A DNA stretch of 64,000 nucleotides from Pseudovibrio japonicus. GTDB lineage: Bacteria; Pseudomonadota; Alphaproteobacteria; Rhizobiales; Stappiaceae. Below the pieces are notes generated by a model. That model ran no database searches. It was not told the origin of the DNA and was given only the letters and a program-made list of their open reading frames with translations. Position numbers and translations under genes: made by a program. Every line of letters begins with the position of its first letter. Within the stretch, counting starts at the first letter, position 1. This document shows positions 3,237 to 18,220 of the stretch, in pieces. The stretch spans positions 930,001 to 994,000 of the forward strand of contig NZ_BMXE01000001.1 in NCBI RefSeq assembly GCF_014651595.1, read 5' to 3'.

Positions 3237-4478
3237 CTAATCTTCATAGTACATACGGTAGATAGCGCCTGCGGAGTCGTCAGAGATCAGCAGCGAACCA
3301 TCTCCTAGTTCCACCACATCAACAGGACGGCCAAGGTAGGCCTCGTTGGCGTCAATCCAGCCGGTGGCAACAATGCTGGGCACCCCTGCTTCTTCCTGCT
3401 CATTGATGGGCACAAACACGACGCGCGCGCCGATTGGGACTGACCTGTCCCATGACCCATGCTGTGCGATGAAAATGCCGCCCTTGTACTCTTCAGGGAA
3501 CATATCGCCCTGATAGAACATCATACCAAGGCTGGCTGCGTGGGCGTCCAGTTCAACTTCCGGGTCTACGACGCCTTCTGGGATAGGCTCATCGATATAT
3601 TCGTGCGTGCGGACAGTTCCGCCGCCATACCATGGAAAGCCGTAGTTTTTGCCGGGCTCGGTGACTTTGTTGAGCTCTTCAGGCGGGATGTCATCTCCCA
3701 TGCCGTCTACCTGATTGTCCGTGAACCAGAGATTGCCGGAGTTTGGATTGAACTCCAGACCAACCGAGTTGCGGATGCCCGTGGCGTAGACCTGACGGTC
3801 CAGACCTTCTGTATCGATGGAAATGATGCCGCCAATGCCCAGACTGTCGTAGAGTTTCAGCTTCTCTTTTGGTGGCACATTGTACGGCTGACCAAGCGAA
3901 ATATAGATGCGGCCATCCGGGCCCTGATCACATACGCGGGAGGAGTGGTTGAAGCTTTCTTCAGAAGGCGGGATAAGCATCCCCTGCCCGACCAGTATTT
4001 TCACCTCTGGGTCGCCCTGCTCCTTGTTCTCCAGCGCATTGGGGAAACTGACAACGCGGTTCTGCTCTGCAACAACGAGTGAGCCATCATCTGTGAAACA
4101 CACGCCATTGGGGAGGATGAAAGACTGGCTTGGTGCGAACTCGCGAACTTCTGCAGCCTTCATGGTGTTTTCATCTTGCGTGATGACCCAGACCTGGTCC
4201 GTGGTGGTTCCAACAAAAACAGTTTTTCCATCGGCGGCAACGGCCATATGACGGGCATCTGGAACAAGGGCATACGGCTCGATGTGGAAGCCATCCGGCA
4301 TCACGATAATGTCAGCGACACTGCCAAGGGCGGCCATTCCATCTTCAGTTTGCTCCTCAAACTGAGTGGGCACCCCATCAACCGTTTCGGTGATTGTTGC
4401 GGCCAGCGATGTGGTGAGCAGCATGGCATAGGCGCACCCTGTCAGGACCCCGTAGAGCGCTGGTTTCGTGGAGCACAT
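3237..4478 (-). CDS. PQQ-dependent sugar dehydrogenase, sorbosone dehydrogenase family, exported
   Basis: 413-residue beta-propeller protein of the glucose/sorbosone dehydrogenase family, periplasmic, likely a PQQ-linked oxidase of an aldose or related aldehyde. Recognisable blocks: LPNGVCFTDDGSLVVAEQNRV, SRVCDQGPDGRIYISLGQPYN, TGIRNSVGLEFNPNSGNLWF with DNQVDGMGDDIPPEELN after it, KNYGFPWYGGG, and IFIAQHGSWDRSVPIGARV near the C-terminus. The frame is open to 4601, but the ATG at 4478 has GGAGGAAAG just upstream and starts a signal peptide (ALYGVLTGCAYAMLLTTSLA). PQQ dependence is family knowledge. No pqq genes or partner cytochrome lie next to it. Substrate unknown. Confidence 0.85.
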   Translation of the reverse strand: MCSTKPALYGVLTGCAYAMLLTTSLAATITETVDGVPTQFEEQTEDGMAALGSVADIIVMPDGFHIEPYALVPDARHMAVAADGKTVFVGTTTDQVWVITQDENTMKAAEVREFAPSQSFILPNGVCFTDDGSLVVAEQNRVVSFPNALENKEQGDPEVKILVGQGMLIPPSEESFNHSSRVCDQGPDGRIYISLGQPYNVPPKEKLKLYDSLGIGGIISIDTEGLDRQVYATGIRNSVGLEFNPNSGNLWFTDNQVDGMGDDIPPEELNKVTEPGKNYGFPWYGGGTVRTHEYIDEPIPEGVVDPEVELDAHAASLGMMFYQGDMFPEEYKGGIFIAQHGSWDRSVPIGARVVFVPINEQEEAGVPSIVATGWIDANEAYLGRPVDVVELGDGSLLISDDSAGAIYRMYYED

Positions 4479-5044
4479 GGACTTTCCTCCTTCACCGGCC
4501 GAGCCTCCCCTTGTTAGAAAGATATTCCGGGGCCGCTCAAGTCTTTCGCTTTTCCTGCATCTTTTTTCGGAAATCCAGCATTCACTTTTGCAAGAATGCA
4601 CGATGAAATTTGACTGAGAAAACGTATCAGATTATTCCGAATTATCTGCATGTGTGAGCCGCCATAATGCGCTCATTCAAAGTCTGAGGAGAATACCCAG
4701 ATATGACGGGAATTCGGTTTATACAACCACAAAAATTGAAGGTAATCACTTAGCGGAAGCTGCGTTTTGTGGTGCTAGAATACGTCACTATGGAAATTTG
4801 AAAGTGTGGACAAACAACTTTAGAAAGGTGCTCACTTGAAATTGCCTCATTTTCGTGCCACATCCTACGCATCATCAAGAGAAGGGCTGGCGCCCTCGCC
4901 AACCTGCCGAACCGGGCAAGGTGGTCTCCGCCAAAAGGGATGTGGTTTCGAAGTGAGGACATTGTCTTCATCGTTCGCAACAACCAAGCGGTAGTTTCTA
5001 TGGATTTTGCGCCAGTCCTCCTCGGGAAACCGATGGAGGATTTA
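4479..5044. other. 566-base intergenic region
   Basis: No convincing gene. It holds the promoter side of the dehydrogenase gene and the lead-in to the small gene at 5045. An open frame at 4654-4839 (61 codons) lacks a good ribosome site and any recognisable motif, so it was not called. The stretch around 4600-4840 is AT-rich. No tRNA, repeat or strong hairpin was seen. Confidence 0.5.
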
Positions 5045-5425
5045 ATGTTTGATCTTGCTAGTCAGCCACAGTCTGCATGGCAATCGTATGTATCTGAATA
5101 TGTGCCTCAATCTTTGAGGGAAGCCGTCGAACATCTGGCCGACGAGTTTAATGCTGCCTATTTGCTGGATTGTCTGATCTTAGAAAAAGGGCTGCGGAGC
5201 CGCCTGCTTTCCAACTGTACGCGCCAGGCTCATACACCCCTTTCCACTGACGAGCGCACTGACCGGTTTGCAACGCTGCTGCGGCTATGGGCGGAAGGCT
5301 GTCATACGGTTGTTGATGAGCGTCTGTTTGCGGATACCGTGCGCAGACGCCCTCAGGAGCTGGAAGCACTTCGTGACTACTTCAGGCAGAATGCCTTGCG
5401 CGCAAAGAAGCGCAGTCCAAGCTGA
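5045..5425 (+). CDS. hypothetical protein, 126 residues
   Basis: Not recognised. The frame is open from 4940, but the ATG at 5045 is preceded by GGAGGA at good spacing, so the protein probably starts MFDLASQPQSAW. It is mostly helical by composition, has one central Cys pair (CLILEKGL, SNCTRQ) not in a CxxC arrangement, and a basic C-terminus (RAKKRSPS). No membrane segment or signal peptide. It is convergent with the truncated haemoglobin gene, 25 bases apart, so there is no operon link to the globins. Confidence 0.5.
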   Translation: MFDLASQPQSAWQSYVSEYVPQSLREAVEHLADEFNAAYLLDCLILEKGLRSRLLSNCTRQAHTPLSTDERTDRFATLLRLWAEGCHTVVDERLFADTVRRRPQELEALRDYFRQNALRAKKRSPS

Positions 5426-5450
5426 GTGAGTTAGCTACTCAAGGCCGCGT

Positions 5451-5900
5451 TCAGGCTGCCTGATTGCCGAATTTGGCAGGAGGCTTGGCGAACGGGTCTG
5501 CAAACATTGCGAGCCAAAGGCTCTGAGCAATACGCTGCGCTGTTGCCATCAGGAGCGGAGCAGCCTCAGGAGCAAAGATCGAATTCACTTCGCCTTCAAA
5601 CAGGTCCATCCATTCATGGAAGTTCTCGGTGGTGACACCTTCAATCCGTGTGTGCGCTGGAACAGGCTTGCCCTTGTAACTTCCGGTCTTTAGCAATACA
5701 GATGCCCAGAAATGCTTCATCTTTTCCAGATGAGGTCCCCAATCGTCACCCATCTCTCTTAGAAAGATCGGCCCCAGCGTTTCGTGATGACGGATCTTGC
5801 CGTAAAAACTCTCCACCAGCTGGTTGATCTGAGCTGGTGTGATTGAGTGATCAAGTGGTGTTCGTTCGCGTGCTGGCATAACAGAAATTTTTGATGACAC
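5451..5900 (-). CDS. group III truncated haemoglobin
   Basis: 149-residue haem protein of the group III truncated globin family, whose members bind O2 or NO tightly (Campylobacter Ctb is the model). Family features seen: FYGKIRHHETLGPIF with the B10 Tyr, WGPHLEKMKHFWASVLL with a His at E7, then the TGSYKGKPVPAHTRI block whose His is the proximal haem ligand (F8), and FHEWMDLFEGEV. The frame is open to 6005 but would run into the thioesterase gene. The GTG at 5900 has AGAGGG 8 bases upstream and is the likely start; an ATG at 5879 has no ribosome site. A degenerate paralogue lies two genes upstream at 6420. Confidence 0.88.
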   Translation of the reverse strand: MSSKISVMPARERTPLDHSITPAQINQLVESFYGKIRHHETLGPIFLREMGDDWGPHLEKMKHFWASVLLKTGSYKGKPVPAHTRIEGVTTENFHEWMDLFEGEVNSIFAPEAAPLLMATAQRIAQSLWLAMFADPFAKPPAKFGNQAA

Positions 5901-5931
5901 AGCGTTTCCCTCTTTTTGTTCTGTGACACAG

Positions 5932-6360
5932 TTATGCGTTGTTGAGCTTCGCCCGCTGTTCCTCGGCAATTTCGATGGGTTTGCCATCATCATCAACAGC
6001 GACAAAGGTAAACTGAGCGTTTGTTACTTTTTCGCGGATGCCAAAGCGATGACGCAGTGCCCAGGCTTCAATGGCAAGCGTGACAGAGGTTCTGCCGATG
6101 CGAAGCACACGTGTGTACACGCACATCACATCGCCTACTTTTACGGGGCGGATAAAGGTCATGCTGTCTATCGCAACCGTTACAACACGCTCCATGGTGC
6201 ACTGACTGGCGGCGATGCCGGCAGCAATATCCATTTGAGAGACAACCCAGCCGCCGAAGATATCTCCGGAGGCATTTGTGTCTGCCGGCATGGCCATAGT
6301 GCGGGTGGTCAACTCGCCAGTCGGCTGCTCTTCTGCAGCAGCCTGCGGTGTATCAGTCAT
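5932..6360 (-). CDS. acyl-CoA thioesterase, YciA-type hotdog fold
   Basis: 142-residue hotdog-fold hydrolase that cleaves acyl-CoA to fatty acid and CoA. The YciA/Acot signature is clear: DTNASGDIFGGWVVSQMDIAAGIAA (about residues 29-53, with the N-x-x-GDIFGG-x-x-x-x-x-D catalytic helix), then VVTVAIDSMTFIRPVKVGDVMCVYTRV and TVALEAW-like strands. The C-terminus is FVAVDDDGKPI, also typical. It sits between two globin genes on the same strand, 31 bases upstream of the first. That proximity does not obviously tie it to gas sensing and may be chance. Confidence 0.88.
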   Translation of the reverse strand: MTDTPQAAAEEQPTGELTTRTMAMPADTNASGDIFGGWVVSQMDIAAGIAASQCTMERVVTVAIDSMTFIRPVKVGDVMCVYTRVLRIGRTSVTLAIEAWALRHRFGIREKVTNAQFTFVAVDDDGKPIEIAEEQRAKLNNA

Positions 6361-6419
6361 AACTTAAGTGCTCCGTCCATCCATCAAACCAAATGCTATG
6401 CATGGCGAAGCATAATCAC

Positions 6420-6836
6420 TCAAGCAGGGATCATCGCCATATGAAAGCAATCAACAACCTGAGTCGCACATTTCATCGTATTGGCCCTGGCGGTCTCAGC
6501 AACGCATTCTTCGACAGCACTTTCGAATAAATTCAGCCAACTGGCAATATCTTCGCTGCATACCTGCGTTGCAGCATCACGATATGCACTGATTGGACGG
6601 CCAGAATAGCTCATGTCCTTCATAAGCGCAGAACTCCAGAACCGAACTGCCTGAGCTTCGTAATCATCCCAATCGTAGTTCAGATTATTCTGGACGATGC
6701 CAGCAAGCTTTTCACTCTGACGCAGTTTTTCTGAATGACTGGCGATCAATGCACGAACTTGCGCATGTGTCAGGTCAGGATGAACTGGTGTGGCTTCATC
6801 CTGTGGGCGAATGTCAAAATGCTGATAGGTCATCAC
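6420..6836 (-). CDS. globin-like protein, group III truncated haemoglobin relative with altered haem pocket
   Basis: 138 residues. It aligns without gaps to the globin at 5451 over the region around helices B to E and again over FWSSALMKDMSYSGRPISAY versus FWASVLLKTGSYKGKPVPAH, and W-x-x-LFE is kept. Where the paralogue has the B10 Tyr this protein has Ser, where it has the E7 His this one has Tyr (DWDDY), and where it has the proximal F8 His this one has Tyr (PISAY). It either binds haem through Tyr or has lost haem and serves another role. No signal peptide. It is on the same strand as the thioesterase and the Crp/Fnr gene, with short gaps. Confidence 0.7.
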   Translation of the reverse strand: MMTYQHFDIRPQDEATPVHPDLTHAQVRALIASHSEKLRQSEKLAGIVQNNLNYDWDDYEAQAVRFWSSALMKDMSYSGRPISAYRDAATQVCSEDIASWLNLFESAVEECVAETARANTMKCATQVVDCFHMAMIPA

Positions 6837-6914
6837 AGTGTTTCAGGAGCCCTGCCGAAACAAGACCCATGCCCTTTTTTGTTGTTTTTGGTCGCTTGTG
6901 CTCAAAAACCGAAA

Positions 6915-7604
6915 CTAGAGCTCTGCAGCAGCGCGCAGCACCTCCGGCTTTTCGAGGCAGTAGTATCCAGAGAGGCGGCTGATTACGCCTTCCCGTTTCC
7001 AGACATTGAGGACGCGGCTGACGTTCTCACGTGCGCCACCAGCCATATTTGCGATCTCAGCCTGAGAAATTTTGTAGTGCACCAGGATCTTGTGGTTATC
7101 GACCTGTTTGCCAAAGGTTTCAGAGAGTTGCAGAAGCGTCTGGGCAACACGGCCATTGAGAGGCAAGAACGAACGCGCGGCGAGCGCATCGTTGGAGCGA
7201 CGCAGGCGGGTTGCTACGATCTGGAGCATGTGGCGGTAGACCGCCGGGTTTTCATCGGCATAGCGATAGAATGCAGCTTTGGAGATAAACGCGAGCTGGC
7301 TTGGCTTCAGTGCTGTAACAGTCGCAGAACGCTCACTGCCATCGAGCAGCGCAATTTCACCAACCAAGGACCCCTGCCCGAGTACGGCGAGCAGCTGCTC
7401 GCTGCCATCTACGGACACCACCGAGACCTTCATACTGCCTTCAATGATTGCATAACAACCGTTGCCTGGGTCTCCAGCTTTGAAAAGAACCGCGCCGGAT
7501 TTCAAGGACATGGGCTGTGCGATCTCTGAGAGACCATGCGCATGCTCCTCTGCCAAGCCAGACAGTGAGAAGCTGTTTTGAAGGAGTTCTTTGAACTTGG
7601 TCAT
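6915..7604 (-). CDS. Crp/Fnr family transcriptional regulator
   Basis: 229-residue regulator. Residues about 20-120 form the cyclic-nucleotide-binding beta roll (LFKAGDPGNGCYAIIEGSMKV, then GQGSLVGEIALLDGSERSATVTAL, whose GEIALLDG-x-x-RSATV matches the phosphate-binding cassette of cAMP-binding members). The C-terminal winged helix has the Crp-type recognition region (ISQAEIANMAGGARENVSRVLNVWKREGVI). There are no Fnr-style N-terminal cysteines, so it is more likely ligand-binding than oxygen-sensing through Fe-S. It heads the minus-strand group with two globins and a thioesterase. A perfect Crp-type palindrome at 7704-7719, about 100 bases upstream of the start, suggests autoregulation. Confidence 0.9.
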   Translation of the reverse strand: MTKFKELLQNSFSLSGLAEEHAHGLSEIAQPMSLKSGAVLFKAGDPGNGCYAIIEGSMKVSVVSVDGSEQLLAVLGQGSLVGEIALLDGSERSATVTALKPSQLAFISKAAFYRYADENPAVYRHMLQIVATRLRRSNDALAARSFLPLNGRVAQTLLQLSETFGKQVDNHKILVHYKISQAEIANMAGGARENVSRVLNVWKREGVISRLSGYYCLEKPEVLRAAAEL

Positions 7605-7703
7605 CTTGCCACTTGGTCCTGACGCACCGTTGATTGATGTTTTTTAGTTTAAGCTGCATCAATATAATTGAGGATTTTAATTAGATCTACGATGCGGCCA
7701 TTT

Positions 7704-7719
7704 TGTGACCGGGATCACA
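7704..7719. promoter_or_regulatory. Crp-type operator upstream of the Crp/Fnr gene
   Basis: TGTGA-N6-TCACA with both half-sites perfect (spacer CCGGGA). This is the consensus bound by Crp. It lies about 100 bases upstream of the minus-strand Crp/Fnr gene and beyond the end of the next gene, so the Crp/Fnr gene is the only plausible target. Confidence 0.65.
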
Positions 7720-7790
7720 GAGATATTCTTTGGTTTTAGGCAAATTATGGGTGATCATAAATACCCCAACGTTTATGGCAATTTCAATAG

Positions 7791-7824
7791 GAACGATCTC
7801 TTCAACCGCAGGAAGAGATCGTTC
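7791..7824 (-). terminator. hairpin directly after the YdjC-like gene
   Basis: Perfect 13-bp inverted repeat (GAACGATCTCTTC at 7791-7803, complement at 7812-7824) with an 8-base loop, abutting the stop codon of the gene at 7825. It is the likely end of the glycan-gene transcript, although the U tract is poor. Confidence 0.6.
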
Positions 7825-8622
7825 TTAGAATAAGAAGATATCTTTTTCCATCAAAAGAAACGGAAACTCCTCGCTAATGAGGAACTTTAGCTGGTTTTCC
7901 CGGGACGAACTTTGCCGCACGCTTTTCTTTTTCACTGGTTTGGCCTGCTCTTCAGGATAGGAGGGACGGCACAGGACCATTGCTGAATCCTGGGCCTCGT
8001 TGATTCCGTGCCAGAAAAAATCCCTCAGATCTGTATCTTCATCGGCCATGGGCAAGTCTGGTCCGCAGGCGATTGCTTTCAAGCCCGCTCTTGAGGCGCG
8101 TTTGGCAATGGAGTTGCTTGTACGGCTTCCCCCGGCAGGTAATACCAGTGCAGGCTCGCGCCCTTTCATCATGGTCAGGACGGTGATCAGTGCTGAATGG
8201 ACTGCAGGATGCTTCGCAAGGTTGCCCTGAATGGCGACAAAGGCTGGCGGACGGGCGTAGACCTCTTCAAACAAATCGACCTGTGCCGCGATCTCAGCGG
8301 CGATTGCTTCTTCCGGAAGCATCTTCATGGGACTGCGGATTGAGTACCACCACGAGGCCGGGAAAACGTCTCCGAATACGGTGCGGCCAAAATCTGTCAG
8401 CGGGCCTGCGGGTTTTGTGAGAGTCACAGTCAGGCCGACCATGGTTTCATGCTCTGCCCATGCCACCACGTCCCGCAGCTGATAGAACTCCCTTGACCAC
8501 ATCTCGCCGGTGACAACACAGCCGACGGCAGACAGCCGGCCTGCGATGATCAGATCGCAGATCGCACGGTCAACTCCGTAGCTTTGCCCAAATTCCAAGC
8601 TCGTCAAGAGGATGCGCTTCAT
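7825..8622 (-). CDS. YdjC/ChbG-HpnK-like protein lacking the usual metal-binding residues
   Basis: 265 residues, similar in layout to the YdjC/ChbG/HpnK carbohydrate deacetylase family: N-terminal strand and loop LTSLEFGQSYGVDRAI, the VGLTVTL block, an EIAAQVDLFEEVYARPPAFV segment and AIQGNLAKHPAV. In active members these positions read DDFG, GLHLxL and DGHQHxH, supplying the metal ligands; here DD is LE, the first His is Thr and the HQH motif is gone. The fold is probably kept without hydrolase activity. The start was set at the ATG at 8622 (MKRILLTS) rather than the longer frame to 8676, because the family begins there. It is in line with the GT39 and GT2 genes upstream and probably shares their transcript. 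Confidence 0.6.
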   Translation of the reverse strand: MKRILLTSLEFGQSYGVDRAICDLIIAGRLSAVGCVVTGEMWSREFYQLRDVVAWAEHETMVGLTVTLTKPAGPLTDFGRTVFGDVFPASWWYSIRSPMKMLPEEAIAAEIAAQVDLFEEVYARPPAFVAIQGNLAKHPAVHSALITVLTMMKGREPALVLPAGGSRTSNSIAKRASRAGLKAIACGPDLPMADEDTDLRDFFWHGINEAQDSAMVLCRPSYPEEQAKPVKKKSVRQSSSRENQLKFLISEEFPFLLMEKDIFLF

Positions 8623-8703
8623 CGCGCGTATCTCCCAATCCCAAAGGTTCAGGAGTACATTTAACAAAGCCTGCAAATTTAACGCAACGGAATCTCAGCT
8701 GTT

Positions 8704-10209
8704 TCAGTTGGATTTCAGGGGCTCTTTGGGCCCTGACAACCGATAGATCCGTATATTCTCAATGGTCGTTTTTCCGAATAATCCCTTATTCTCTCGGGGG
8801 ATAGTTTCCAGAAGTTCAACCTGATTGAAGTTCTCCGCCAGACTTTGTGAGCGATCTCTTCTTTCTTCCGCTACGTACAGCATATCGCTGTATTCAGGGT
8901 TTTGAAGATTATCGGGAATCATTGCGTAGCGCATTCGCTCCGGAATTCCGTAGACCATAAGGTCCGTATCTTTGAGCATGTTCGAGGCTCGACCGGTCAT
9001 CCCGTAGCTGGTTGTGGCAATCCAATCTATGTTATTTGCCTGCGCCAAACGGGCTACTTCATCGCCAATTTCCTGCCAGCCGCGCATCTGATGCGTCGGG
9101 TCTTTGCGGCCCAGCGAGGTGTTGAGCGGTGTGTATGCGTGGACATAGACCAAGCCAGTTATAACGAAGCCAAGCACAACAGCCGTTGGTGCAAGCGCTT
9201 TGAACCAGCGGCCAATATTCTCAGGAGGGTAAGCGGCAGCGACGGCTGCGTAGATGGCAAGCGTCGGGTAAATCGGTGCAGGCCAATTGCCCTGCACGCG
9301 TGAATGCAGGGAATGGAAGAACAGATAGATCAGGAACGGCACAATGGTTAGTATCAACAGGCTTGCGGTACTGTCCTGCTTGACCGTTTGCTTGAGAAGG
9401 CGCCAGAGGCCAACCATTGCAATGATAAAGACAAGTGGGTTTAGCAGGCCTGCAACTGCGCCGATGAACTCACCGACATATTTGACCGAATAGCTTTCTG
9501 GCACGGAGCGACCGAACTGCTTTACGAATGAAATCCACTCGTGCTGCTCGTTCCAGTACAGGACCGGCGAGAAGATCGCGATTGCCAATACACCGCCAAG
9601 CCACAACTGCCATGACAGGAGGTATCTGCGGTTTTCAGGCACCCACAGCAGCCAGAGGACAATTCCGGCGCCAAGAAACAGCACAGAATATTTGGCGAGC
9701 AGACCCAATCCAGCGAAGATGCCAACCAGTATCCACCAGTTTGCGTTTTTGGAAACCGACAGCTCAGCCATTCCCCAAAGCGCAAGGCCCCAGAAGAACA
9801 CCGAGGGCGCATCTGGTGTGGCGAGCAGTGAGCCGACGCCAATCAGCAAGCTGGCGTTGAGGAACAGGACTGCCCAGCCAGCAACGCGCATGTCAAAAAG
9901 GATTTTCGCTGTGCGCCAGAGAACGAGCGAGCCGATTGCAGAAGATAGGATGGAGATGAAACGCACACCCAGCGCGGTGTCGCCAAACAGAGCCTGTCCC
10001 AGCCAGATCCAGTAGGCAACCATTGGCGGGTGGTCGTAGTATCCCAACGCAGGATAAAGGCCCCACAAACGGTAATAGGCTTCATCCTCAACCAGATCGA
10101 TATTCATGCCTGTTGCCAGCCGTGCCAACGATAACACAGCCACAATCAGAATAAGGTTGGTTGGGCGCAGCCAGAAGCCCAGCTGCTTTCCCGCGGTAGT
10201 TCCCTGCAT
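8704..10209 (-). CDS. GT39/ArnT-like membrane glycosyltransferase
   Basis: 501-residue polytopic membrane protein of the dolichyl-phosphate-mannose/ArnT-like GT-C glycosyltransferase superfamily. After a short cytoplasmic lead, the first extracytoplasmic loop has DLVEDEAYYRLWGLYPALGYYDHPPMVAYW (about residues 35-64), with the acidic DE pair and the YxDHPP-x-x-AY motif diagnostic of ArnT/PMT enzymes. About ten more hydrophobic helices follow and the C-terminal 120 residues form a periplasmic domain. It likely moves a sugar from an undecaprenyl-phosphate carrier to an envelope glycan or lipid. The GT2-GtrA protein encoded just upstream would make that lipid-linked donor, a common pairing. Confidence 0.85.
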   Translation of the reverse strand: MQGTTAGKQLGFWLRPTNLILIVAVLSLARLATGMNIDLVEDEAYYRLWGLYPALGYYDHPPMVAYWIWLGQALFGDTALGVRFISILSSAIGSLVLWRTAKILFDMRVAGWAVLFLNASLLIGVGSLLATPDAPSVFFWGLALWGMAELSVSKNANWWILVGIFAGLGLLAKYSVLFLGAGIVLWLLWVPENRRYLLSWQLWLGGVLAIAIFSPVLYWNEQHEWISFVKQFGRSVPESYSVKYVGEFIGAVAGLLNPLVFIIAMVGLWRLLKQTVKQDSTASLLILTIVPFLIYLFFHSLHSRVQGNWPAPIYPTLAIYAAVAAAYPPENIGRWFKALAPTAVVLGFVITGLVYVHAYTPLNTSLGRKDPTHQMRGWQEIGDEVARLAQANNIDWIATTSYGMTGRASNMLKDTDLMVYGIPERMRYAMIPDNLQNPEYSDMLYVAEERRDRSQSLAENFNQVELLETIPRENKGLFGKTTIENIRIYRLSGPKEPLKSN

Positions 10210-15373: not shown

Positions 15374-15481
15374 TTGAGCTGGTTTGCGTTTTTTAGGTGA
15401 TTCTCTGCGTTGGTATGGGATTCTATCCACTCTAGCCTCATGAGAGACCTTGCGGATGCGCCCACCTAAACTCTTTTTTCA

Positions 15482-15508
15482 AAAAAGTTCGCTCATAGCG
15501 AACTTTTT
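15482..15508. terminator. strong bidirectional hairpin at the retron boundary
   Basis: Perfect 12-bp stem AAAAAGTTCGCT (15482-15493) with its complement at 15497-15508 and a 3-base loop. A/T-ended arms on both sides make it a likely insulating terminator just before the retron RNA region. Confidence 0.7.
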
Positions 15509-15545
15509 CCCTTGAAAGTACATGATCAATAACTATCTACTTATG

Positions 15546-15735
15546 GTGTTAAACGGAAGAAGGTCCTCATACCTAGCTTAAGATTGTTTGAGCGCGGAGA
15601 GTTATCTCTCTACCACTTCCAGCGCAGACGGACGGGAGCCCCCGATGGGACGACGGGACGGGAGCGTGGGAAGCAGACCTGTTAGGGAGGACCCTAACAG
15701 GTCTAGGCTTTAGGATAAGTCGTCGGATTCCGTTT
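15546..15735 (+). ncRNA. candidate retron msr-msd RNA
   Basis: Retrons transcribe a structured RNA upstream of their protein genes; part is copied into multicopy single-stranded DNA. Seen here: a weak promoter (TTGAAA at 15512, TATCTA at 15534), an inverted repeat AAACGGAA (15551-15558) / TTCCGTTT (15728-15735) that could be the a1/a2 pair, CCTAGCTTAAG near 15571-15581 offering a possible branch guanosine, a small hairpin GAGAG-TTAT-CTCTC at 15597-15610 and a perfect 13-bp hairpin AGACCTGTTAGGG / complement at 15675-15704. Size and order fit an msr-msd, but the a1/a2 repeat is only 8 bp and the real RNA may extend into the hairpin at 15733-15800. Ends are estimates. Confidence 0.5.
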
Positions 15736-15800
15736 TCTGTTGGGGAGGACCCTCGGCAAGTAATGCTCATTCCGAGTATTGCACCGAGGCCAGCAGAAAG
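15733..15800 (+). ncRNA. long bulged hairpin, alternative msd candidate
   Basis: Nested stems: TTTTCTGTTGG (15733-15743) with CCAGCAGAAAG (15790-15800), a 7-base bulge, CCTCGG (15751-15756) with CCGAGG (15784-15789), then GTAATGCTC (15760-15768) with GAGTATTGC (15774-15782) using G-T pairs. About 26 paired positions, the shape of a retron msd. It shares the motif GTTRGGGAGGACCCT with the hairpin at 15675-15704. It overlaps the a2 candidate, so the two foldings compete and only one may be the copied element. Confidence 0.45.
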
Positions 15801-15886
15801 GAGGGCTTATGGCCCTTTCAGATATTACACACCGGCGACAGCGGCAGAAGAGGTTTTGGAAGAAATTCCTCAATCCTCGTTTTTTG

Positions 15887-15913
15887 AAAGTCACATTTAA
15901 AGTGGCTTTTATT
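15887..15913 (+). terminator. hairpin with T tract before the retron HTH gene
   Basis: AAAGTCAC (15887-15894) pairs with GTGGCTTT (15902-15909; one G-T pair) around a 7-base loop and is followed by TTTTATTAT. It could end the retron RNA, partly separating it from the HTH-RT message. Confidence 0.5.
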
Positions 15914-15996
15914 ATCCATAAAATTGCCAGGTTTATAATCTGGTTGTCCGGGTAGCTGCCGCTCTCCTAACGTCTAAAACAAGATAGGACTTAGCC

Positions 15997-16302
15997 ATGA
16001 TCAACGAGGCATTGAGACTCATTCGAGTGTTTCATGATTTGAAACAAACCGAACTGGCTAATCGATTGGGTATCTCTAAATCACATATCTCTGAGATTGA
16101 GAATGGCAATAAAAAGCCATCTCTCGATTTGATTGAAAGATACGCTCAGACATTCAACTTACCAGTTTCTTCAATAATGTTCTTTGCGGAAGAACTGCCT
16201 AATGCCAAGAGCGGAGATAAAGCTCGATCAAAAATAGCAGGGAAAGTTATCAAGATTTTGCGGTTCGTTGAAAGGAGAGCTAATGAGAAAGACGCAGCTT
16301 AA
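15997..16302 (+). CDS. retron-associated XRE-family helix-turn-helix protein
   Basis: 101-residue DNA-binding protein. Residues 5-65 are a Cro/CI-type HTH (LRLIRVFHDLKQTELANRLGISKSHISEIENGNKKPSLDLIERYA), with KQTELANRLGISKSHISEIE as the two recognition helices. The tail is basic. It overlaps the reverse transcriptase gene by 20 bases, so they are co-translated, and lies just after the retron RNA candidate. The order RNA, HTH, RT matches a retron class whose accessory protein is a small HTH protein (type VI in the published scheme, from memory). In such systems the accessory protein is the presumed effector or the regulator of the defence response. AT-rich relative to neighbours. Confidence 0.85.
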   Translation: MINEALRLIRVFHDLKQTELANRLGISKSHISEIENGNKKPSLDLIERYAQTFNLPVSSIMFFAEELPNAKSGDKARSKIAGKVIKILRFVERRANEKDAA

Positions 16303-17212
16303 GGACGGCTATCAACTGAGAGATAGTCCCTTCTTTCGACTCGCAAATCGTAAAAAACTTAGTACCCTTCTTAGAGTTTCGGAGGAAACTTTAAAGGCGT
16401 TATCAACAAGCCAAGACCTTTACACCCGACGCTGGAAGCATAAGACAAAAAAAGATAAGGAGGTTGATGCTTGGAAAAACTATATTCCAGAGAATGCTGA
16501 TGAATATAGGCCGATTGATATTCCGATACCAAAACTGAAAGCAACGCAAAATCGGATTTCAGACCTACTTTCACGAGTCCAAGCTCCAGACTTTCTTTTT
16601 AGCCCAGTGAAGGGGCGATCCTACGTTGAAAACGCATCTCACCACGTTGAAGGAACCGCTTTTTGGTCGCTAGATGTTGCTGACTATTTCCCAAACTGCA
16701 AAGCCAATAATGTCGCGAGATTTTTTAGACGAGATCTCGAATGTTCAAGAGATGTAACTGCTATCTTGGTTGCTCTAACCACTCTTAACAAGTGTCTCCC
16801 ACAGGGGTCTCCGAGCAGTCCTATATTAGCCTACTATGGTAACAGTCATATGTGGCTCAAGGTCGCCGATTTGGTTGCCTCTTATTCGTGTAAGTTTAGC
16901 CTTTATGCCGATGACATAACCATATCTGGTCCGATCATAAAAAAAGAGCTCATTTGGAAGATCAAGAAGATCATTCATGCTAACGGTTTTCTCTTAAAGC
17001 CCTCAAAAGAGATCAGTCTGATTCATGCGCCTGCCGACATAACCGGCGTCATTGTGAAACAAGGAAAAACACACCTACCTAACCGTCAACTCAAGCGACT
17101 TGCAGAGTTAAAGAAGGAACGCGCCCACACCAAAAACCCGGCATCGCAAGCCGTTTTGGATAACCAAATATCAGGCAGACTTGGGCAACGGAGGCAGGTG
17201 GAACGAGTGTAG
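16283..17212 (+). CDS. retron reverse transcriptase
   Basis: 309-residue RNA-directed DNA polymerase that primes from an internal guanosine of the msr RNA and copies the msd. Motifs in order: IPIPKLKATQNRISDLLSRV, the retron-specific NAxxH motif as NASHH (about residue 118) leading into FWSLDVADYFPNC (palm Asp), CLPQGSPSSPILAYY, the catalytic YADD in FSLYADDITISGP (about residues 209-221), and ITGVIV, equivalent to the retron VTG motif near the C-terminus. There is no maturase or endonuclease domain, which excludes a group II intron. The ATG at 16283, with AAAGGAG upstream, was preferred to the TTG at 16268. Codon use and base composition differ from the flanking his genes, suggesting transfer. 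Confidence 0.93.
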   Translation: MRKTQLKDGYQLRDSPFFRLANRKKLSTLLRVSEETLKALSTSQDLYTRRWKHKTKKDKEVDAWKNYIPENADEYRPIDIPIPKLKATQNRISDLLSRVQAPDFLFSPVKGRSYVENASHHVEGTAFWSLDVADYFPNCKANNVARFFRRDLECSRDVTAILVALTTLNKCLPQGSPSSPILAYYGNSHMWLKVADLVASYSCKFSLYADDITISGPIIKKELIWKIKKIIHANGFLLKPSKEISLIHAPADITGVIVKQGKTHLPNRQLKRLAELKKERAHTKNPASQAVLDNQISGRLGQRRQVERV

Positions 17213-17439
17213 CGTTTGTAGCTGGCCTAATAAGCACCCAATGGCATTTTCAGGCATCTTGAGGATCAGATCGCGAACAGAATGCACATTACTTTGGGGC
17301 TAATTAGCAGACCTGCAACGCTTCATTGGCAGACGGTCCGTCCCTCATATTAAGTGGAGCGTGGATACCTTTTAAAAAGGAGAGCCTTTGCCCTTGGTGG
17401 GGGCTTGGATGCGGAGACTGAGAAGAGCCGTCGGCCTGT

Positions 17440-17697
17440 TTAATCATCAGGATCATCAGGGAAATCAACGCCGCAAACAGACATCTCTCCGGGTATTGTT
17501 GTCGTCCATTGGCCGTTCCAAGTACCTCCAGCCTCTGCCGCTACCTGCGGGCACTTTTCCTCGGCATCAAGTTGATTCCAAATTGGACCAGCCTCAACAT
17601 CTTCCGTATAGGCAAACGCCTGACCAGCATACAAAACGGCGGCGACACCAGCAGCAATGAACAGAGGTCTTTTCTTGTTGGCTTTTTGGTAGGTCGT
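17440..17697 (-). CDS. small secreted mannan-binding-lectin-like protein, apparent ACG start
   Basis: About 85 residues if read from the ACG at 17697. The mature part resembles the mannan-binding lectin (MVL) repeat: GPIWNQLDAEEKCPQVA, then WNGQWTTTIPGEMSVCGV. Such modules bind oligomannose. A signal peptide precedes it (basic KANKKR, a hydrophobic core and a cleavage-like GQAFA), but the signal has no ATG, GTG or TTG before it; the only in-frame start with a ribosome site is ACG, 6 bases after AGGAG (17704-17708), right after an in-frame stop. The TTG at 17634 would remove most of the signal. It is either a rare ACG start or an ATG lost by mutation. It lies 227 bases after the retron and reads towards it. 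Confidence 0.6.
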   Translation of the reverse strand, partial: TTYQKANKKRPLFIAAGVAAVLYAGQAFAYTEDVEAGPIWNQLDAEEKCPQVAAEAGGTWNGQWTTTIPGEMSVCGVDFPDDPDD

Positions 17698-18220
17698 TTA
17701 GAACTCCTAGGCACAGATACGCACCCAAATTAGATGTGCAATCAGAACTGAAGTTCAACTGAATGCAGGCACAAACGCGAACAAATGCAGGTTACATTTA
17801 TGTTATGAGCGCCCCCCATTAAAAGGCCCAGTTGAAAGGTAGCGCATGGTTGGTCTTGGGAGCTGGCGGTGGAGATTTCTGTTTCGTCCACTTGGCGGAG
17901 GATGGCGATCAGGTGTGACCGGAGTGCTATGGGCGTTCTAGCCGCGCTCGGTCTGGTGGCTGCTGTCTCTTGCTGGTTATTTGTCTGAGCCTTACCTGAA
18001 TCCTCAAAGATCCCCTAACCCTAATGGTTATCACTCATATATCTCGGATTCACTTATTGATATCTAGGGGTTTCTGGCAAATGGGCCGCTTGTTCAATCC
18101 TATGACGGGTCGTTAGAGGAACCCGGCAGAGGGGCAGCCATAAAAGGGTTTTGGTTGGCAGGGCAGCGGGCCAGTGTAATTCTGATTAAAGTGAGAGCCA
18201 CTTAGTGGCCGTGAGGGAAA
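17698..18220. other. 523-base intergenic region
   Basis: Non-coding between two divergently read secreted-protein genes, so it should hold both promoters. No strong hairpin, tRNA or repeat was found. A stretch at about 17863-17905 is loosely similar in DNA to part of tag at about 19218-19255 (minus strand would read LRQVDETEIS versus LRQLGKTEIS), possibly a decayed remnant or chance. Confidence 0.4.

Follow-up and report, generated by a model that had tools for sequence, protein, structure and literature searches.

A 64,000-nucleotide stretch of the Pseudovibrio japonicus genome, hereafter the window, carries a retron, a bacterial element of a class with anti-phage function, whose effector we propose to be a 48-residue peptide. 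With a probability of roughly 0.55, the mRNA of this putative toxin is caged by the retron's own template and gated by reverse transcription. We identified the parts of the system, their pairings and the conservation of the open reading frame (ORF) by comparison with relatives, and computed the cost of opening the ORF start.

Retron type and genomic setting

The element is ordered as RNA, small ORF, HTH gene and reverse transcriptase (RT) gene. The initial annotation had described a 20-base overlap between the HTH ORF (15997-16302, + strand, 101 aa) and the RT ORF (16283-17212, + strand, ATG at 16283, 309 aa) and had listed the RT motifs NASHH, YADD and ITG; the overlap was borne out and all three motifs are present. 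An alignment of 21 sequences shows no variation at RT residues N117, A118, H121, D210, D211, T254 and G255. Among the classified retron RT models of PADLOC, RT_VI matched best (296.6 bits, 3.9e-89) and RT_III-A was next (138.5 bits), and the HTH protein, which has a Cro/CI-type fold, matched HTH_VI (123.3 bits, 8.5e-37). The retron assignment also held against group II intron RTs (21.3 bits, cut-off 300) and Drt2 (12.2 bits, cut-off 390). By sequence, the closest solved RT was that of retron Ec86 (7v9u, 1.3e-17), and the solved-structure matches listed were other retrons. Taken as sequence matches, these results support membership of retron type VI, a class said to stem from the retron typing by Mestre et al. 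2020. Retron-Kva2 is type IX according to the searchable part of its source (PMC13405049).

The element is AT-richer than the his genes, as had been noted (GC of 0.40-0.48 in 500-base windows vs 0.52-0.63), and its presumed insertion behind hisG agrees with the gene order in relatives. Full hisG is present in 14 loci of the same genus; in 5 of them (L078, L080, L081, L083 and L084), the tag glycosylase gene follows 70-120 bases after hisG, whereas 3.75 kb separates the two genes in the window, and the retron element lies inside this stretch. The tag gene was not found within the ~1.5 kb examined in the remaining 9 loci. Comparison with the five relatives thus supports acquisition via insertion after hisG. 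Elsewhere in the same genome (L090, C8:244000-258000, at 4300-9500), other genes, judged by eye to be LysR-, class II aldolase- and GntP-like, are flanked by fragments from the 3' ends of hisG and tag and by a copy (94%) of window 17379-17800. Because these fragments bracket other genes, the hisG-tag gap may be a duplicated cargo site. Window 17440-17634 (- strand) holds a 64-residue ORF that shares 98% identity with a segment of a longer L090 ORF with a signal-like start; in the window, the start region looks altered.

A small ORF encoding a candidate toxin

The initial annotation saw no obvious toxin in the element and regarded it as an HTH-only retron. The former statement is probably wrong: a 48-aa ORF (15809..15955, + strand), cationic then hydrophobic with a net charge of +11, had been overlooked between the RNA and the HTH gene, with a Shine-Dalgarno sequence just upstream. 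Nor is a retron without effector supported, as this toxin-like ORF belongs to the system and the HTH protein looks like an autorepressor.

Relatives were gathered from whole genomes, genome contigs (best 80 of 217), viral contigs (41 loci), and plasmids and phages, the last two sampled as 12 regions out of 171 matching plasmid records and 24 matching phage records. Among the resulting 211 loci, 138 had an HTH match of at least 75 bits; L070, a second copy of the window, was excluded and other near-copies were kept. A candidate small ORF ended just before the HTH gene in 135 of the 138 loci (near-copies included), and the other three (L129, L133 and L141) are contig ends whose sequence starts close to the gene. 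Under strict criteria, the ORF was present in 66 of 69 non-redundant loci, compared with a mean of 1.4 and a maximum of 4 in 20 dinucleotide shuffles. The family is diverse, since a profile built from 13 members recovered 32 of 56 held-out loci at E<1e-3. The small ORF occurred at loci in alpha-, beta-, gamma- and zetaproteobacteria, cyanobacteria, a staphylococcal plasmid and P2-like prophages, and close matches to the system occurred in 99 of 5426 complete E. coli genomes.

Judged by codon comparison, the protein sequence of the small ORF is conserved, with differences favouring synonymous sites. The window ORF gave dN/dS values of 0.31-0.36 against four relatives, and 29 chosen, partly overlapping ORF pairs gave a pooled pS of 0.25 and pN of 0.11 (dN/dS range over the pairs 0.04-0.91, with 0.9 in two and undefined values in three). 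The peptides have a median charge of +8 and a basic first half, and the C-terminal half is the more hydrophobic in 68 of 69. AlphaFold modelled the 48-aa peptide as two helices (mean pLDDT 71.9), the second mostly at 88-92 and the first at about 55. Neither PADLOC, Pfam nor NCBIfam contained a family match for the small ORF. Its E. coli form is PHROG 15287, of unknown function, and the small ORF of the E. coli P2-prophage system is WP_001754918.1; the window ORF matched PHROGs weakly (E 0.074) and the small ORF of L091 had no match there. The make-up and setting of the ORF suggest that it encodes a toxin.

Several type VI loci carry additional genes. A TIR-domain gene lies directly 3' of the RT in three alphaproteobacterial plasmids (L054, L056 and L057); in some type VI retrons it might serve as a second effector. 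An FRG-domain gene (L212, 5716-7080) adjoins an E. coli type VI retron in a P2-like prophage, between the replication endonuclease and portal genes. Close behind the retron we also observed an Fst-type toxin gene in the staphylococcal plasmid (L065, 4030-4125) and a Hok-type toxin gene in an Aeromonas plasmid (L217, 2871-3023).

Predicted operator and promoter

The palindrome TTCGCTCATAGCGAA (15488..15502), just 5' of a presumed -35 box, is the predicted HTH binding site. Operators with at least 10 of 12 matching positions were found in the searched region of 101 of 135 loci and in 0 of 135 after one shuffle each, and a TTGAC-like box adjoins the operator in many loci. The likely promoter of the window (TTGAAA, 16 nt, TATCTA; 15512..15539, + strand) was read by eye and would start the transcript at about 15546; this box pair was not reported by a consensus promoter scan. 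The region had initially been described as hairpin-rich RNA. That description stands for 15570-15990, which folds far beyond its shuffles (-176.5 vs a mean of -130.2 kcal/mol; z -6.6; 0 of 100 shuffles as low), and fails for the first hairpin (15482-15508, or about 15481-15508). We rejected this hairpin as RNA: most relatives repeat TTCGCTnnnAGCGAA ahead of their promoter region, which makes a DNA operator the better reading. Given this recurrent position of the operator, the HTH protein is a likely autorepressor, probably repressing its own promoter through TTCGCTnnnAGCGAA. A search of the same genome revealed two more TTCGCTGCCAGCGAA sites, spaced 219 bp apart and close to a photolyase-like gene (L216, 2586-2819; C2:189085 and 189304), where the local ORF list contains no retron RT.

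Architecture of the retron RNA

An Rfam search returned no match for the RNA. Its parts were delineated by comparison. The msr-msd RNA (15551..15735, + strand, as are all parts below) extends from a1 (15551-15558) to a2 (15728-15735), as placed by the cognate test of leader against a2. The stretch directly after PL2-5' corresponds to the a2 position of a classical retron. Adjoining a1 is the leader segment L (GGTCCTC, 15562..15568), near which we expect the branching G from the retron rule. The msr stem-loops SL1 (15576-15593) and SL2 (15596-15611) are placed by covariation: in 12 sequences, 94.8% and 95.7% of cells were paired, with double changes in 4 of 7 and 2 of 6 pairs respectively. H2, a 13-bp hairpin presumed to be that of the msd (15675..15704), had 88.4% of cells paired and double changes in 10 of 13 pairs, and carries motif copy 1 (GAGGACC, 15687-15693) in its loop. 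Next come PL1-5' (15705-15715) and PL2-5' (15719-15726), the presumed template strands with which copying should begin. Behind a2, the H3 hairpin (15736..15797) precedes the Shine-Dalgarno sequence and carries motif copy 2 (GAGGACC, 15745-15751) in a bulge; the two copies lie in a 17-nt direct repeat of 94% identity (15679-15695 and 15737-15753). L is complementary to both and can pair with either one.

Three long-range helices connect this RNA with the ORF and its surroundings. In the window, PL1 pairs 15705-15715 with 15965-15975, PL2 pairs 15719-15726 with 15832-15839 in the early ORF, and PL3 pairs 15841-15847, also within the ORF, with 15956-15962; PL3-3' and PL1-3' thus lie just after the stop codon. 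Applied separately to clades A, B, C and D, RNAalifold recovered SL1, SL2, H2, PL1 and PL2 every time. A start-codon hairpin was left off the parts list, since it was paired in 100% of cells in clade B and in only 54-83% in clade A.

Specificity and covariation of the pairings

Each segment was scored for its fit to the partner from its own locus against partners from other loci (cognate test). By a fixed rule, 12 of the 69 loci were set aside for lack of H2 (n = 57), and a further 10 of 57 for PL2 out of register (n = 47). Cognate partners were favoured for PL1 (z 5.7), PL2 (z 9.2) and PL3 (z 4.2; all n = 57), and the motifs of the H2 loop and H3 bulge were identical within a locus (z 13.1, n = 57); complementarity between H2 loop and H3 was null. 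The a1/a2 pairing of a retron msr-msd was found in the leader and a2 (z 5.9, n = 47, a set chosen for PL2 in register), and the leader scored z 0.8 or less against PL2-5', PL1-5', the stretch behind a2 and that behind the stop. An a2 behind the ORF, which would place the ORF inside the msd, was rejected on the null result behind the stop and the support for a2 before H3. L matched the H2 loop (z 7.6) and H3 (z 7.0; both n = 42), and the highest of six control tests for L reached z 2.0 (p 0.02). Between loci, however, 5-bp matches of L are not rare: both partners matched in 33 of 42 cognate cases but also in 44% of non-cognate ones.

Restricting the test to 20 dissimilar loci left PL1 (z 5.5), PL2 (5.0), a1/a2 (3.8), L with H2 (5.2), L with H3 (4.9) and motif identity (8.1) well above three controls (z -0.6 to 0.4), and PL3 dropped to z 1.9. 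Among the other comparisons, leader against ORF start gave z -4.4 in wide-window duplex energies, a noisy measure in which the sign denotes lower energy, and z 3.5 in the cognate test; leader against the SL region gave z 2.2. The comparison of the H2 loop with R (z 11.4) is not a control, because R reaches into H3.

Covariation was assessed within clades. Clade A, which includes the window, had 91.6% of cells paired and 44 double-change pairs vs 19.6 in shuffles; the corresponding counts were 25 vs 13.0 in clade B and 13 vs 7.2 in clade D, where one of five measures (further pair types) was not above shuffles. Sliding the partners abolished the excess of double changes in clades A, B and D. 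The within-clade counts for a1/a2 are weak, with double changes in 1 of 8 pairs (clade A), 0 of 4 (B) and 1 of 4 (D), and only 69% of clade A cells paired.

Six fresh loci (L217-L222) were fetched after these tests as a check. All six had a small ORF with a Shine-Dalgarno sequence, and five had an operator with at least 10 of 12 matches. Four kept PL2 in register, but between 2 and 8 of the 57 non-cognate partners equalled or bettered it there; for PL1, no more than 2 of 57 came level in four loci, and a shared motif of at least 6 nt was present in three. The Enterococcus locus L220 failed the RNA tests. Altogether, the comparative data support the a1/a2 helix, the long-range template-to-ORF helices and the complementarity of L.

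Cost of opening the ORF start

In folding computations, the presumed template strands cage the ORF start. Shuffling only these strands (two shuffles each) lowered the cost of opening positions -18 to +36 in 40 of 47 loci, by a mean of 2.7 kcal/mol, and from 32.2 to 27.9 in the window. Removal of the whole msd lowered this cost in 37 of 47 loci, a comparison without shuffle control; in the window, the cost from Shine-Dalgarno to start codon alone did not fall (12.9 to 14.5).

Proposed mechanism and alternatives

We propose that one transcript would comprise the retron RNA, the peptide ORF, the HTH gene and the RT gene, from a promoter turned down by the HTH protein through its operator. As long as the RNA is uncopied, the msd segment that should be copied first (15705-15726) would pair with early ORF codons and with sequence after the stop, so that the ORF start would be caged. 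Retron RTs begin copying at the a2 border, and PL2-5' and PL1-5' would therefore serve as the first template, ahead of H2. The leader, beside the priming site, could take either of two partners, the loop of the msd hairpin or the bulge near the ribosome site. Once the RT copies the msd and RNase H acts, the caging strands and the leader's first partner would be lost at the same time, and the state of the msd would thereby decide on peptide synthesis. Since a1:a2 crosses PL1 and PL2, not all helices can form at once; as L, moreover, holds only one motif copy, the RNA looks like a two-state switch, one state being a caged mRNA and the other a retron form. After copying, the ORF might be freed, or an msDNA particle might then lock it a second time by docking through a1:a2 and L:H3. 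We infer that the peptide is toxic at the membrane, that RT copying is the gate, that phage is the trigger and that the HTH protein is a repressor. One consideration counts against this best explanation: if copying frees the ORF, uninfected cells making msDNA need another brake. For type VI retrons as a whole we hold, tentatively and at somewhat less than even odds, that reverse transcription is a translational switch: msd copying would destroy the ORF-caging strands and let the leader exchange the msd loop for the toxin leader, and RT activity would thereby be reported by release, or re-locking, of a membrane toxin.

The docking step could also be the whole of the antitoxin: a particle of RT, msr and msDNA would sit on the toxin mRNA via a1:a2 and L:H3 and block the ribosome until phage damage frees the peptide. 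Both helices could outlast copying and lie shortly before the Shine-Dalgarno sequence, and in known retrons a complex of RT, ncRNA and RT-DNA silences the effector until infection, according to the searchable part of PMC12548924. Yet such docking leaves unexplained why the caging strands are located in RNA that is to be copied, and we consider it rather unlikely. The shared motif of H2 loop and H3 bulge, identical within a locus, could instead mark a template-jump site as proposed for DRT2, where conserved ACA trinucleotides flank the template (searchable part of PMC12039810), and the RT would then make longer or repeated cDNA rather than simple msDNA; the complementary leader, however, accounts for the motif identity through RNA pairing alone, which makes this the least probable reading. 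Scarcely more probable is that, as the initial annotation implies, the HTH protein is the effector and the small ORF only a leader peptide or antitoxin. PADLOC does include models called RT_VI and HTH_VI, and the small ORF matched none of its models, but a Cro/CI fold and an operator before the promoter fit a repressor, and the small ORF is conserved in protein sequence and toxin-like.

Relation to known systems

Template-gated caging of a peptide toxin, our preferred reading, builds on a known class: type VI retrons share the RT and HTH models and the order RNA-HTH-RT, and membership of this class is not new. PADLOC has no small-ORF model for the type, and what we propose as new, for the whole type, is the small ORF as effector together with its template-strand cage. 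We found neither a type VI retron toxin nor a template-strand cage in the searchable literature, mostly without subscription journals, including the searchable parts of PMC12548924, PMC8934634, PMC9252829, PMC12039810, PMC13405049 and PMC8989520. As far as the available part of PMC12039810 describes it, DRT2 likewise couples reverse transcription of a pseudoknotted RNA to a hidden toxic ORF; that ORF arises in concatemeric cDNA, whereas here an intact ORF lies on the transcript and the RT is of retron type.

Our candidate also resembles type I toxin-antitoxin systems in its predicted short cationic-hydrophobic peptide, long-range mRNA lock and hidden start. In hok/sok, a structured mRNA with a long-range lock and a hidden start site encodes a short peptide. 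The lock proposed here differs in that a reverse transcriptase would use this strand as its template. In retron Ec86 the effector is a separate protein; here, by contrast, the candidate effector is a 48-aa peptide ORF on the retron transcript. HTH-only retrons thereby gain a candidate effector and a mechanism. If true, the retron would target the translation of its toxin rather than a finished protein, and it would link retrons with RNA-locked toxins.
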